From a virus, in the IMG/VR virus record IMGVR_UViG_3300031261_000073, positions 1 through 23,522 of that record: 23,522 nucleotides of DNA; one strand, given 5' to 3'. Below the pieces are notes generated by a model. The model was not told where the DNA came from, made no database searches, and saw only the letters and a list, made by a program, of their open reading frames with translations. This document shows positions 13,389 to 23,522 of the stretch, one piece after another. Numbering within the stretch: the stretch's first letter is position 1; the number at the start of each line of letters is the position of its first letter. The translations under genes were made by a program, and so were the position numbers.

Positions 13389-14603
13389 TTAAAACAGGCT
13401 GCCGTCATCCTCCGGCGTTTCCTGCTGCGTGGGTGCCTGCTTGGGAGCCGGCGCCAGTTTCTGCTCGGTCTGCTGCTTGTTGGTGGCAGCTTCAGCGGCA
13501 TCCGTCACTACCTGGCGGGCCAGCGGCTGAGCATTGGCGGCATGTGATTCAGCGGCCTGGCCGGTGGCGGCCTGCTCCGGCTTGGCATCAGTAGCATTGG
13601 CGGCAGGCTGCGGCTGAGCGGACTGCTGAGGCGCAGGCGCTTGCTGCTGGGTGGCATTGGCGGCAGGAGCTGGCGCACCACCCTGACGGCCCTTGCGGGT
13701 AGCACCAGCAGCAGGCGCTGTGGCGCCGGCCTGGGCTCCGGCGGCAGCACCAACGGAGTTGTTGATGGCGGCGCCCTTGGCGGTATCGACGGCCTTGTTA
13801 TTGTCGTCGAACCATTCTTCAAGCGTAGTCATGCCATCGCGCAGGCTGTGAAACATGCCCTGGAGATCCGCAAAGTCGTCATCGTTAAACGTCTGCATGG
13901 GCTTCTGCGAGCGGATCTCCAGCATTGCCCGCGTGATACCGAACTTGGCCAGCACACCCAGCGCACGCTCGATACGCTGGTCGATGGTGACGCCACCGGC
14001 CAGTGTCTTGCGGCAGGTTTCTACGGCCTGCTCCTGCAGCCACTTCGGCAGGATTGCCATGATGCGACCACGCAGGCGGCGGCCGGCCTTGTTGGCGATC
14101 AGCTCGTCGATATCGCGCTCGCTCTTTGCCGGCCGGCTGTTGCCACCGGACAGGTCGATGATGTGCTTCACAGTGAAGCTGGTACTCGAGCGGGTATTGC
14201 TCTGGAGGTCTTTGGCGAAAACTTCCACTTCGGAAAAGTCCGCACCACGACTCAGCTCACGGTGACCGAATTCGATATTCCCCCAGCACAAGGCAATCTG
14301 CTCCGCCAGGCGGATGCTCGGGCCGGAAATGGTTTCACGGCCGCGCGGGAAGCTGTAAAAGGCCTTTTCAGCCATAGACTGCTGCTGGCAGATCACCTTG
14401 ATATCGTCCATAGCCCCCTTCACATTGCGCGGGAAGCGCTTGGCGATGGCCAGTGCACCCTGGGCCTCTGCAACAGCGCGCGACGTTTCTATCGCAACAG
14501 CGCCCTGATTCAGCCCGGTTGACGGCAGATGGTCACTATTGAAAGCCTCTTCATAGCTGCCCTGCCGCATCGGGGTGGCCACCCCATCTTCTTTGGTCTG
14601 CAT
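13389..14603 (-). CDS. Putative single-strand annealing/recombination protein with SSB-like tail
   Basis: 404 residues. Residues 1-285 form a folded, charged domain with several conserved-looking blocks: GALAIAKRFPRN (49-60), FPRGRETISGPSIRLAEQIA (85-104), WGNIEFGHREL (107-117), ERDIDELIANKAGRRLRGRI (162-181). Residues about 286-404 are low complexity (Ala, Pro, Gln) and end EDDGSLF, strikingly like the linker and acidic tip of bacterial SSB. It sits between a SbcC/RecF-like ATPase and small genes, two genes downstream of a RecE-like exonuclease, the place where RecT/Erf/Rad52-type annealing proteins occur. I do not recognise RecT, Erf or Sak motifs, so annealase is an inference from context and tail. 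The start has a GGAGA site; the previous stop is 3 bases away. Confidence 0.55.
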   Translation of the reverse strand: MQTKEDGVATPMRQGSYEEAFNSDHLPSTGLNQGAVAIETSRAVAEAQGALAIAKRFPRNVKGAMDDIKVICQQQSMAEKAFYSFPRGRETISGPSIRLAEQIALCWGNIEFGHRELSRGADFSEVEVFAKDLQSNTRSSTSFTVKHIIDLSGGNSRPAKSERDIDELIANKAGRRLRGRIMAILPKWLQEQAVETCRKTLAGGVTIDQRIERALGVLAKFGITRAMLEIRSQKPMQTFNDDDFADLQGMFHSLRDGMTTLEEWFDDNNKAVDTAKGAAINNSVGAAAGAQAGATAPAAGATRKGRQGGAPAPAANATQQQAPAPQQSAQPQPAANATDAKPEQAATGQAAESHAANAQPLARQVVTDAAEAATNKQQTEQKLAPAPKQAPTQQETPEDDGSLF

Positions 14604-20252: not shown

Positions 20253-20681
20253 ATGAAATTTTGTAATACCTGTGGAACTGAAAAAGCAGAATCAGAATTC
20301 CATATACGAAAGGCATCTGTTGATGGTCTTTGCGCAAAATGCAAATCGTGTATGACTGATTATGATAAAAAAAGAAGTGGAGACAAAAATAGAGTTGCCA
20401 AGCGTAAGGAATATTCGCTGAGTATTGTCGGTATTGCTGCTGGAAAAAAAGCAAAAGAAAAATATATAGAAAAAAACCCAACGAAAAGAAAGGCTCATAT
20501 TTTGGTTGGTAATGCAATACGTGATAAGAAGCTTTTTAAGGAGCCATGCGAGGTTTGCTTTACAGAAGAAAATATTTGTGCTCATCACGATGACTACGCC
20601 AAACCATTGAATGTCCGCTGGTTATGCGCCCTTCATCACTCGCAATGGCATCAAGAGCATGGGGAATCGCTTAATCCCTAA
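20253..20681 (+). CDS. HNH endonuclease, AT-rich insertion
   Basis: 142 residues. The N-terminus has a zinc-like CNTCGTEK with CAKCKSC (Cys4, 7, 27, 30, 33). The HNH region runs CEVCFTEENICAHHDDY (Cys99, 102, His111/112), then KPLNVRWLCALHHSQWH (Asn120, His128/129). Ribosome site AGGAG ends 6 bases before the ATG. Sequence is visibly more AT-rich than its neighbours, with A/T-ending codons, and it is flanked by a 13-bp direct repeat at the ssb end. A free-standing homing-type endonuclease or moron inserted between ssb and the next early gene is likely. Cleavage site and mobility are not shown here. Confidence 0.85.
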   Translation: MKFCNTCGTEKAESEFHIRKASVDGLCAKCKSCMTDYDKKRSGDKNRVAKRKEYSLSIVGIAAGKKAKEKYIEKNPTKRKAHILVGNAIRDKKLFKEPCEVCFTEENICAHHDDYAKPLNVRWLCALHHSQWHQEHGESLNP

Positions 20682-20812: not shown

Positions 20813-21070
20813 ATGTATACCAAGGTGGTGTACGAGAAAGGCCGCTGCGTCTCGTCCTGCAGCCGGTACTTTATGGAGGGCTGCCTTGCCCGCCACCTGC
20901 TCGACAACATGACTCGTGATGAGCGCCGGGCATGGGTGGAAATGTGGGGTGCCCGGCAGAAACACCTGAGTCATGATGAGCGCCAGACTGCCATGCAGCA
21001 CATCCGGGATACCGTGATTGAAGAGTGGAATTTCAGGAAGTCCCAGCAGACACAGGCGGATGCAGCATGA
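20813..21070 (+). CDS. Small protein of unknown function upstream of VRR-NUC
   Basis: 85 residues from ATG 20813, where GAAGAGG gives a good ribosome site; the in-frame ATG at 20777 touches the terminator T-run and has no site, so it is rejected. It contains Cys12, 16 and 24 (CVSSCSRYFMEGC) in the N-terminal part and a charged helical remainder with two similar phrases (MTRDERRAW and LSHDERQTA). The stop overlaps the next ATG by ATGA. I recognise no family. It may be a partner of the VRR-NUC protein. Confidence 0.65.
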   Translation: MYTKVVYEKGRCVSSCSRYFMEGCLARHLLDNMTRDERRAWVEMWGARQKHLSHDERQTAMQHIRDTVIEEWNFRKSQQTQADAA

Positions 21071-21483
21071 GAGAGAGCAGCGTCAGCAAAAAACTAATGC
21101 TGTTCCTGAGCCGCGCCGGTGCGGTCCTATTCAGAAACAATGTCGGCAAGAGCTGGATCAGCTCTAACTTTGTTGAGCTGGGTAACGGTGATGTGCTGGT
21201 GAAAAATGCTCGCCGCTTCCATTCCGGGCTTGTGGACGGGTCGCTTGATCTGGTCGGTTGGTACTCCATTATCATCACCCCGGACATGGTGGGCAGCAAG
21301 GTTGCGGTTTTCACGGCCATTGACTCGAAGCACAGTAATGGTGGTGACCGCAAGAAAGAGAATCAGCTCAATTTTATCTACCAGGTCAATGATGCTGGTG
21401 GGATAGCAGGTTTTGCGTCCTCCGAAGAAGAGGCTATGCAGGTGCTGGAGCGCGGTGTTTCGCGGCTCCGTACCAACGGTTGA
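21067..21483 (+). CDS. VRR-NUC domain nuclease (Holliday-junction resolvase-like)
   Basis: 138 residues from ATG 21067, overlapping the previous stop. The expected order is seen: R-NN around 23-25 (LFRNNVG), G-S-L-D-L (58-62), a strand ending AIDSKHSNGG with Asp86 and Lys88 (the D-x-K of PD-(D/E)XK folds), then a Q-containing helix (NQLNFIYQV) and AGGIAGFA. Known of the family: VRR-NUC domains cut branched DNA in phage recombination and host interstrand-crosslink repair (FAN1 family). The stop lies within the left arm of the interleaved repeat that precedes the primase gene. Confidence 0.87.
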   Translation: MRESSVSKKLMLFLSRAGAVLFRNNVGKSWISSNFVELGNGDVLVKNARRFHSGLVDGSLDLVGWYSIIITPDMVGSKVAVFTAIDSKHSNGGDRKKENQLNFIYQVNDAGGIAGFASSEEEAMQVLERGVSRLRTNG

Positions 21484-21573
21484 TGTGTCGGCTAGGTCTG
21501 GCCGCCGAACGATCCCCCAAGTGATCCGCCGACGCATCATTCAATACTTGGGATAATAAGAGCCACTTGGGGG
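21481..21573 (+). promoter_or_regulatory. Interleaved inverted repeats (pseudoknot order) covering the primase ribosome site
   Basis: Stem 1: TGATGTGTCGGC (21481-21492) pairs with GCCGACGCATCA (21528-21539), 12 pairs with one G-U. Stem 2: CCCCCAAGTG (21514-21523) pairs with CACTTGGGGG (21564-21573), 10 perfect pairs. Their order A-B-A'-B' is that of an H-type pseudoknot (loops of about 21, 4 and 24 bases). The right arm of stem 2 contains GGGGG, the ribosome-binding site 4 bases before ATG 21578. Alternative ACTTGGG (21546-21552) also fits the left arm of stem 2, and a second CCGCCGA (21502) resembles that at 21526. This suggests a switchable leader or an operator/origin. Not a terminator: no T-run. 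Confidence 0.6.
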
Positions 21574-21577
21574 CCCA

Positions 21578-23522
21578 ATGAGTAATGAACTGCCAAAAAC
21601 GTCGCAACAGGATATTGACCGTGCAAACGCCAATATCCTCGAAGTGGTCGGCGAGTTTATTGACCTGAAAAAACAGGGTGCAGAGTGGGTAGCCTGCTGC
21701 CCGTTCCACAATGAAAAGTCGCCATCGTTCAAGGTTAATCAGAACAAAGAAATGTATTACTGCTTTGGCTGTGGCGCCAGCGGTGATGCCGTCTCGTTCG
21801 TGATGGAGTTCAAGGGCTTCAATTTTCCTGACTCGGTGCGCTACATCAATGGCGAGCCCACGAAGGCCAATATCGTCCGTCCGCCGGCCGACCAGCGCCC
21901 ATCTTTTGCGCAGCAGCGCCAGCAAGCACGCCAGTTCGAGCTGATTATTCCGGTACCTGATCATGCTGAGCCTCCGCCCTCTGTTCACTCAAGGCATGGC
22001 AAGCTTACTTCCATGTGGCCTATCCGTATGCCGGATGGCGAACATATCTACGGTTATGTCGTGCGTTTCGATATCCTCCGCCGTGACCCGGAAACCGGTG
22101 AAATGCGTCCAGGCAAGGAAGTGCTGCCGCTGACCTACTCGGTTGATACGGAAACCGGTGAAGAGGGCTGGCGCTGGGCGGCGCTGCCGAAGCCGCGGCC
22201 TATATATGGCCTTGAGCAGTTGGCTACCCCTGGCATGGTTGTGATGGTGGAGGGTGAGAAGACCGTCGACGCAGCGCGCCGGCTCCTGCCACAGTTCCAG
22301 GTAATCAGCTACCTGGGTGGAGGCAAGGCCATCGAGCATACCGACTGGCTTCCGCTGAAGGGTCGCAAGGTGCTGATCATCCGCGATGCCGACCAGGAGG
22401 GCTATGTCACCACGTACGGCCGGCTGGGCGAGGATGGCGAGCTGGAGCGGCGTGGCCTGGTGCATATCCTGCTCGAGCAGGGTTGCATCGTGAAGTGCTC
22501 GGAGCCGCCGGCCGACTACCCCAGGGGCTGGGATCTCGCCGACGCTGAGACTGACGGCTGGACACCTGACGACGTGCTGGCATGGGTCAAAAAGCATATG
22601 ACGGACCCGCTTCCGCCATCACCCCCGAAGAAAAAAGCATCGGTCGATAATGAGCAGGTACCGGAGCCTGACGCGCACGACGAAATGATGGCCGACCGCT
22701 TTGCAGATGAAGAGGACGGCGAGCAAGAGGTAATGCTTGATCAGTCTGATCTGCCACCCCAGCCGAAAAGCACGGCAGGCATTGACGGCCACAATCAGCC
22801 ATGGGATTTCCTGGGCTATGACCGGGACTACTACTTTATCTACCACCACGGTAAAAAGCAGATCCTGACGCTTACCGTCGGCAGTTTTGGAAAGAATGGC
22901 CTTATTACCCTGGCGCCGCTCAACTGGTGGGAAAAAAGCGATTTCATGGCGAACAAGAAAAAGCCTGAAATTGACACAGATGCTGCGCTCGATTGGATTG
23001 TGCAGGCCTGCATTGCCAAGGGCGTATTTGATCCATCATGCGTGCGTGGCCGTGGGGCCTGGGAAGACGAAGAACGGCTGGTGTTCCACCTGGGCGACCG
23101 CCTGTGGGTGGATGGCAAGATAACGAACCTGGAGGAAATTAACTCGAAGTTCGTTTATGAGCGCAAATTCAGGATGCCCACGCTACCTGAAACAGCGCTG
23201 ACTACAGCCGAGGGCCAGCACATACTGGAAATCTGCCGCAAGTTCCGCTGGAGTATGCCGGCCAGTGGTGCCTTGCTGGCAGGCTGGATGGCGCTGGCGC
23301 CGATTTGCGGGGCATTGGCGTGGCGTCCGCACATTTGGGTTACCGGTGGCGCCGGCTCAGGCAAGAGCACCATCATGGAGTTCCTGCACTGGCTTATGAA
23401 TGGCATGGATAAGTATGCCCAGGGCAACAGCTCCGAGGCCGGTATCCGCCAGAAGCTGGCGGGTGACGCAATCCCTGTGCTGTTCGATGAGTCGGAGTCG
23501 AATACCGAAAAGGACGCGAACC
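21578..23522 (+). CDS. Bifunctional primase-helicase, 3' partial
   Basis: At least 648 residues, running off the right edge with no stop. ATG 21578 is the first in frame, with GGGGG 4 bases upstream. Residues about 37-95 are a CHC2 zinc finger (CCPFHNEKSPSF with Cys41/His44, and YYCFGCGASGDA with Cys62/65). Residues about 210-275 are a Toprim-like domain (MVEGEKTVDAARRL with Glu225; LIIRDADQEG with Asp270/Asp272). Residues about 345-400 form an acidic/Pro linker, followed by a helicase-type domain: WVTGGAGSGKST (587-598) and VLFDESES (Walker B, about 634-641). Known role: primer synthesis and DNA unwinding in phage replication. The gene lies after a structured leader and in the same direction as ssb and helicase. 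The helicase superfamily cannot be settled because the end is missing. Confidence 0.9.
   Translation, partial: MSNELPKTSQQDIDRANANILEVVGEFIDLKKQGAEWVACCPFHNEKSPSFKVNQNKEMYYCFGCGASGDAVSFVMEFKGFNFPDSVRYINGEPTKANIVRPPADQRPSFAQQRQQARQFELIIPVPDHAEPPPSVHSRHGKLTSMWPIRMPDGEHIYGYVVRFDILRRDPETGEMRPGKEVLPLTYSVDTETGEEGWRWAALPKPRPIYGLEQLATPGMVVMVEGEKTVDAARRLLPQFQVISYLGGGKAIEHTDWLPLKGRKVLIIRDADQEGYVTTYGRLGEDGELERRGLVHILLEQGCIVKCSEPPADYPRGWDLADAETDGWTPDDVLAWVKKHMTDPLPPSPPKKKASVDNEQVPEPDAHDEMMADRFADEEDGEQEVMLDQSDLPPQPKSTAGIDGHNQPWDFLGYDRDYYFIYHHGKKQILTLTVGSFGKNGLITLAPLNWWEKSDFMANKKKPEIDTDAALDWIVQACIAKGVFDPSCVRGRGAWEDEERLVFHLGDRLWVDGKITNLEEINSKFVYERKFRMPTLPETALTTAEGQHILEICRKFRWSMPASGALLAGWMALAPICGALAWRPHIWVTGGAGSGKSTIMEFLHWLMNGMDKYAQGNSSEAGIRQKLAGDAIPVLFDESESNTEKDAN

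Follow-up and report, generated by a model that had tools for sequence, protein, structure and literature searches.

The DNA analysed here (the window) is a virus record of 23,522 bases that carries contractile-tail genes together with genes for an exonuclease, a helicase, nucleases and a CHC2 primase-helicase. On its plus strand, a leader separates the ORF of a VRR-NUC-like nuclease from that of the primase-helicase, and the junction has the following features.

21067-21483, plus strand: VRR-NUC-like nuclease ORF, directly upstream of the leader; phrog_93 endonuclease (searched from 21073)
21481-21492, plus strand: 5' strand of P1 (TGATGTGTCGGC), which opens with the stop codon of the VRR-NUC-like ORF (21481-21483)
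21493-21495, plus strand: UAG of the C-UAG junction motif, common to int-alpA RNAs (alignment)
21495-21506, plus strand: P2, a weak hairpin (GGU/GCC, 3 pairs), in the MFE fold and missing from the centroid
21506-21510, plus strand: CGAAC, the P2-P3 junction; the CGAA motif is common to int-alpA RNAs
21511-21526, plus strand: P3 hairpin, GATC-CCCCAAGT-GATC (predicted fold)
21514-21523, plus strand: antisense segment CCCCCAAGTG, the P3 loop with its closing pair
21528-21539, plus strand: 3' strand of P1 (GCCGACGCATCA), from the inverted-repeat search and the predicted fold
21546-21552, plus strand: target 1, ACTTGGG, 7 nt complementary to the P3 loop
21564-21573, plus strand: target 2, CACTTGGGGG, 10 nt complementary to the P3 loop
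21578-23521, plus strand: primase-helicase ORF (CHC2 zinc finger); PF01807 at 5.1e-31, phrog_35358 DNA primase

The nuclease ORF has an in-frame ATG at 21067, and the ORF list begins the same frame at GTG 21025. Its homologues carry the VRR-Nuc annotation in Dolphis, Jeremy, ST4 and Touem01. The primase ORF starts at ATG 21578 and runs off the window, and it is presumed to be the gene under control of the leader. No promoter-like site was found in 21300-21700 of the window.

Anatomy and folding of the leader

Two inverted repeats interleave at this junction. Stem A joins 21481-21492 to 21528-21539 in 12 pairs, one of them G-U, and stem B joins 21514-21523 to 21564-21573 in 10 perfect pairs. 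The original prediction had placed two such repeats between the VRR-NUC stop and the primase ATG, and its coordinates were recovered. It was likewise correct that one stem covers the stop codon of the nuclease gene and that the last arm includes the ribosome-binding site, since a probable Shine-Dalgarno sequence, GGGGG (21569-21573), lies inside target 2, 4 nt before the ATG. The alternative short partner that it drew, ACTTGGG, is target 1, and two targets recur in most of the members described below. Its pseudoknot drawing is sound as to the interleaving; the structure is better drawn as a hairpin loop plus target, which could act equally in trans.

With the interleaving defined as at least 11 pairs (one G-U allowed) crossing at least 10 perfect pairs at a span of at most 110, this repeat pair is unique among the 23,522 bases, and 1 of 100 dinucleotide shuffles of the window yields one. 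A perfect repeat of 10 pairs is by itself not rare, there being three maximal ones in the window against a mean of 2.1 in shuffles. The longest perfect inverted repeat in the window at a span of at most 110 is another one, of 12 pairs, at 13860-13922 inside a minus-strand ORF (13389-14603).

Predicted folding of the whole of 21465-21600 is ordinary (z -0.94). Taken alone, 21481-21538 has a z of -2.45, with 3 of 200 shuffles folding as well, and its predicted fold is an outer stem, P1, that encloses P2 and P3. A hammerhead or other ribozyme, brought to mind by the GAAA in a three-way junction, was considered and rejected because the junction lengths do not fit.

Leaders and loop-target matching in other phages

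The leader is invariant in five near-identical IMG/VR contigs, so that the covariation proposed as a check by the original prediction cannot come from close relatives. A tblastn search with the primase returned 221 phage records. Twelve named phages were examined, and nine of them have a leader of the same plan ahead of the primase: by inspection in Dolphis, Jeremy, ST4, PHB04, Touem01, phiT5282EW, Mecenats66 and fHe-Yen8-01, and also in Acjo_20, whose predicted fold has P1 enclosing P2 and P3 and whose loop matches 8 and 7 nt downstream (this leader was recognised after the loop-target tests and stands outside them). The IMG/VR contigs L201, L072, L061/L062, L063 and L068/L069 have such a leader before the primase as well, and L226, L232 and L234 resemble L068. 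The order nuclease, leader, primase is shared by the window with Dolphis, Jeremy, ST4 and Touem01.

Three of the named phages (PY223, ZRG1 and MQ-4) have no leader before the primase, and their genes are close together at this point. By eye there is also none in contig L094 and the genomic loci L293 and L294, which carry a related primase; with related primases that lack a leader (L035, L036, L218, L094, L293 and L294), the element is patchy. L061, L063 and L068 keep the leader, and only the C-terminal part of their primase-helicase matches the window protein (residues 406-648, 359-647 and 383-646, respectively). That C-terminal part is carried by 2 of 369 genomes of the class of Tolumonas, which we take to be Gammaproteobacteria (E<=1e-15), neither of them with a leader by eye.

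In 10 of 17 leaders P1 reads GGGC/GCCC or close to it, usually with a U-rich run after it, and many leaders have GGUUAGCUACCG in P2 and GAAAAG ahead of P3. The window's own P2 is weak and without UAGCU, and no U-run follows its P1, which counts against the antisense reading preferred below. The two targets stand at offsets +11/+29 in the window, +10/+29 in Dolphis, +14/+29 in PHB04 and +9/+33 in fHe-Yen8-01, and the matching sites of the members examined are on the downstream side, toward a start codon. The Dolphis loop, TTCTGCTGA, pairs with TCAGCAGAA at +10 and with GCAGAA at +29, while that of fHe-Yen8-01, TTCGATCCTT, pairs with AAGGATCGAA next to the start codon (+33) and with GAAAAGG at +9. 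The letters vary between members and the loop-target matching persists. In L211, L213, L061 and L215 a short frame seems, by eye, to begin just past target 2, toward the primase start, which recalls icd before ant in phage P1.

In an alignment of 12 leaders, 6 of 15 pairs are changed on both sides (four in P2, two in P3), for structures that were set by hand and are thereby favoured over slid versions. P1 is without compensating change in these 12 leaders and P3 is 66% paired; RNAalifold on their MAFFT alignment recovered only P2. The UAG and CGAA junction letters are more conserved than the loop. DNA similarity to the leader among phages was confined to six short weak matches, the pattern GATGNGTCGGCNNGGTCTGGCC found the five near-identical contigs and two unrelated ones, and the pattern GGTTAGCTACCG... 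found 33 stretches, four of them members by eye (L225, L226, L232, L234) and the others unrelated.

The P3 segment of each member was matched against up to 60 nt of its own downstream sequence and against the stretches of all other members, a design that cancels the generic likeness of C-rich loops to any Shine-Dalgarno sequence. The segments of the leaders were hand-chosen from pairing, a possible source of bias in the values that follow. Among 17 leaders the longest run was 7.47 for own against 4.97 for swapped stretches, a difference reached in 0 of 10,000 permutations. In a set of 14 that includes the window and from which Jeremy, L226 and L068 were dropped as near-duplicates, the values were 7.29 and 4.93 (0 of 10,000); both sets retain L225, which is followed by a short ORF and not by a primase. 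Duplex energy gave 0 of 10,000 in both sets too. For the best plus the second non-overlapping run, own and swapped values were 12.57 and 8.04 in the 14 leaders and 12.23 and 8.53 in the 13 without the window (0 of 10,000 each). The P2 region, used as a control in the leaders, had no own-target excess (5.71 against 6.71; 9283 of 10,000). When the downstream stretch of the window itself was shuffled 5000 times, both runs were reached in 2 cases and the 10-nt run in 30. Low ranks of the own stretch among the 17 were seen for L063 (9th), L201 (11th) and L225 (17th).

Relation to known RNAs and spread of the scaffold

Comparison with Rfam, another check that had been proposed, gave no match in the window at the gathering threshold. 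At a relaxed threshold the best match of the leader is the int-alpA RNA (RF02996), whose score of 18.3 bits falls short of the gathering score of 35.8, so that membership in the family is not established by score. The E value was 0.0031 on the whole record and, across all of Rfam, 0.13 with a 241-base and 0.09 with a 161-base query. In the Dolphis leader int-alpA is the sole Rfam match (15.2 bits), which does not hold for those of L072 and L201. RF02996 was found directly upstream of the primase in 5 of 13 records (the window, the contig of L063 with 24.7 bits, the contig of L061, Dolphis and Jeremy), and in a second run of 17 records, one of them repeated, only in L062, a copy of L061. It misses the leaders of ST4, PHB04, Touem01, phiT5282EW, Mecenats66, fHe-Yen8-01, L068/L069, L072 and L201. 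No primase leader exceeds the RF02996 cut-off. At E<=10 the family also has some match in half of the controls, 7 of 14 genomes. The L063 contig (G009) has a second sub-threshold int-alpA match, of 19.1 bits, at 20404-20507 on the minus strand, away from the primase.

The int-alpA RNA lies between integrase and alpA genes, as its name implies, whereas the window leader lies between a VRR-NUC-like ORF and a primase gene. Of 274 genomes from the class of Tolumonas, 35 have a true int-alpA RNA that passes the cut-off, and one locus per genome returned gave a comparison set of 30. With structures again set by hand, these loci covary, with 92.1% of pairs formed against 73.0% in shuffles and 15 of 17 pairs changed on both sides. 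When the window was aligned with them (alignment A3), P1 was 95.2% paired, 7 of its 8 pairs were changed on both sides and all eight aligned P1 pairs of the window formed; the window's P3 is misaligned there. Shared features are the outer stem, the C-UAG and then CGAA junction and two enclosed hairpins, of which the window's P2 has only 3 pairs, and target 1 aligns to the 3' end of the int-alpA model. In most of the 30 loci, moreover, the loop of the second hairpin matches two downstream sites before the start codon. This loop-target relation of the int-alpA RNA was found in the present analysis; in the accessible part of PMC12370729 the RNA is listed only, without a role or such a relation. 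The best plus second run was 10.47 for own against 8.98 for swapped stretches (0 of 10,000; the second site alone, 6 of 10,000), and the P2 control had no own-target excess (912 of 10,000). The difference is less marked than among the leaders and weaker by duplex energy (50 of 10,000), and many single loci rank their own downstream stretch below first.

Two covariance models were built without the window, R1 from the 30 int-alpA loci and R2 from 12 primase leaders. R1 scores the window at 5.8 bits (E 8.9), too low to assign it to the family. Over 31 sources at E<=10 its sole matches are L225 (45.2 bits) and one place hit by chance, and it misses the other leaders. R2 gives the window 9.3 bits at only the third best place within it (E 0.57). 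Among sources outside its training R2 finds Mecenats66 at the right place (E 1.6e-5) and, weakly and at the right places, PHB04, fHe-Yen8-01, phiT5282EW and the int-alpA loci L276, L274, L272 and L281; it has no match in Acjo_20 or P4. L225, a match to the leader pattern whose next ORF is no primase, appears from its R1 score to be a bridge between the leaders and int-alpA RNAs. Since both models fail to place the window, it belongs by plan, position and loop-target matching, and not by score.

According to the accessible parts of the respective papers, the C4 RNA acts at a ribosome-binding site and blocks translation (PMC12197685), arises by processing of a longer transcript and comprises P1, P2, P3 and antisense loops a' and b' (PMC5320573), and the CI RNA of P4 shuts off replication genes by pairing with two sites (PMC4825925). 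The window fold follows the C4 consensus (RF01695) in that P1 encloses P2 and a P3 with a 12-nt loop, and in the complementarity of 21514-21523 to the ribosome-binding site at 21564-21573. C4 is a processed, trans-acting RNA of about 77 nt that uses two antisense loops, whereas in the window one loop fits both targets. The gene after C4 is icd/ant, whereas that after the window leader is a primase, and the window's P1 is the shorter of the two systems as compared. The C4 model has no match in the window (E<=1) or at the primase leader in 16 other records, and two weak matches elsewhere in phiT5282EW and Touem01; it recognises P4 CI (P4 8420-8507; 74.9 bits) and P1 C4 (68.8 bits), which served as positive controls. 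P4 CI is like the window leader in that one loop, UAUCCUGUGAA, matches UUCACAGG beside two start codons, and in lying upstream of the alpha primase gene on the same strand. It differs in that its two sites flank CI, whereas both of the window's are downstream, and in a sequence unlike that of the window's leader. P4 (L289) also has an Rfam isrK match of 60.8 bits at 1696-1773 on the minus strand, upstream of CI, which surrounds the start codon bearing the upstream CI target. An element of this kind, of which the original prediction knew none, has in fact been described: the topology is that of the C4/CI antisense RNAs, and the nearest Rfam family, below threshold, is int-alpA.

The window also supplied a core pattern, CGGCTAGG-N5-14-GCCGAAM, which occurs in at least 120 stretches of viral contigs. 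Among the matches listed 118 were usable, and 16 of these have a fully paired 8-base P1 against a mean of 2.1 (maximum 7) on strand swaps; when 7 of 8 pairs suffice, 30 of the matches listed qualify, a small excess over the swapped mean of 21.7 (maximum 32). The loop-target test on the 16 gave 9.5 against 8.34 (260 of 10,000, among the matches listed), about four of them being without a useful match. For a survey of downstream genes, 17 of the 30 listed stretches with P1 of at least 7/8 were picked by eye. Pfam was run on ten proteins encoded after such stretches, among the matches listed, and five matched.

L338: AP2/HNH nuclease (Pfam); P1 7/8
L332: glycosyltransferase (Pfam)
L411: lambda-type tail tube protein (Pfam)
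L417: pRha regulator (Pfam); loop without a second target
L313: prim-pol domain (Pfam, below cut-off)

Proposed antisense control of the primase and its alternatives

We think it somewhat probable that the leader is an int-alpA-like, C4/CI-like antisense RNA that represses translation of the primase. An RNA of about 60 nt would be made from the region between the nuclease and primase genes, in which P1 would close a three-way junction, with UAG and CGAA as joining strands, and present the P3 loop CCCCCAAGTG. The loop could then pair with ACTTGGG and with CACTTGGGGG over the primase Shine-Dalgarno sequence, and the latter pairing would block ribosome binding and hence synthesis of the primase. 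Of the readings considered, we infer this loop-Shine-Dalgarno repression to be the most economical. Pairing may also favour premature termination of the untranslated message. It might take place in cis, as interleaved stems, or in trans after release of the leader by processing, as with C4 of P1 and CI of P4. In the trans case, the RNA might prevent replication in a lysogen, and likewise that of a superinfecting phage whose loop is identical.

Judged by gene content, the relatives are often temperate, with a tyrosine integrase in 9 of 12 related records; a serine recombinase was found in 0 of 16. No integrase was found in four near-identical contigs of the window phage (54-88 kb, possibly incomplete), so that gene content gives no support for lysogeny in this phage itself. 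The scaffold before nuclease, glycosyltransferase and tail genes suits immunity poorly. The idea of a phage-plasmid was dropped, PF13614 having no match in 9 records and ParB_N two sub-threshold matches in 9. A literature search found no paper tying antisense RNA to primase, immunity and lysogeny in phage-plasmids, and the accessible part of the Mecenats66 paper has no mention of sRNA or intergenic.

The same anatomy could be read as a purely cis-acting switch without a separate RNA, in which the junction would respond to a small molecule or to a protein and the P3 loop would pick target 1, leaving the Shine-Dalgarno sequence free, or target 2, covering it. Recurrence of the two targets at similar offsets in the window, Dolphis, PHB04 and fHe-Yen8-01 is consistent with this, as are the junction letters, better kept than the loop, and the scaffold ahead of unrelated kinds of genes, as expected of a cis module, which keeps this reading alive. 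No riboswitch family of Rfam matches the leader, however, the loop varies freely between members like the specificity loops of the C4 type, and by eye the U-rich run after P1 in many leaders resembles the end of an sRNA; we regard such a switch as rather unlikely. The prediction that RNA controls primase expression gains from the distant relatives, which retain the plan and the complementarity of loop and downstream sites despite changed letters. Little positive evidence was found for its other suggestion, an origin or operator at the DNA level, in which CCCAAGT boxes, present in either orientation, would serve as operators of a regulator or belong to a replication origin. Three boxes of this type lie within 60 bp, and primase genes can lie near origins, yet the boxes of relatives differ in letters and keep matching, P1 pairs of int-alpA RNAs change on both sides, and the matching sites hold to the downstream side; a DNA element is accordingly improbable.

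Control by a single-strand-binding protein of the phage, bound to a leader pseudoknot in an autogenous circuit as with gp32 of T4, seems very improbable. An SSB gene is present in the same replication cluster in relatives, but the fold is a three-way junction with two targets and not a lone H-type pseudoknot, and similar scaffolds precede genes unconnected to SSB. Equally hard to credit, and largely disfavoured, is a chance complementarity at a gene junction or C-rich loops that fit any Shine-Dalgarno sequence. Shuffled windows do contain about two perfect 10-pair repeats, 1 in 100 has the interleaved pair, the leader does not vary in near-identical contigs, and L201, L063 and L225 rank their own downstream stretches low. 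Against this stand the comparisons of own with swapped stretches, which remove the generic Shine-Dalgarno effect and still gave 0 of 10,000 in two sets, and the same plan at the same place in distant phages; the third set, selected by core motif and P1 among the matches listed, was weaker and in the same direction.

More tentatively than for the antisense repression of the primase, it is possible that the scaffold (P1, the UAG/CGAA junction, P2 and P3), with its exchangeable loop, is a plug-in regulator across phages and integrated elements. The int-alpA RNAs would then form one group with the leaders of phage primases and with those ahead of other phage genes, namely for an AP2/HNH nuclease, a glycosyltransferase and a tail tube protein. 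Such a scaffold would share the C4/CI plan and could serve either as an antisense RNA specific to its gene or as a switch between two states that a factor reads at the conserved junction. The int-alpA RNA thereby gains a testable role, and an architecture like that of C4 and CI is found ahead of a primase-helicase gene in a group of large phages. This suggests that the onset of replication in these phages is gated by an RNA loop whose exchangeable letters set its specificity.
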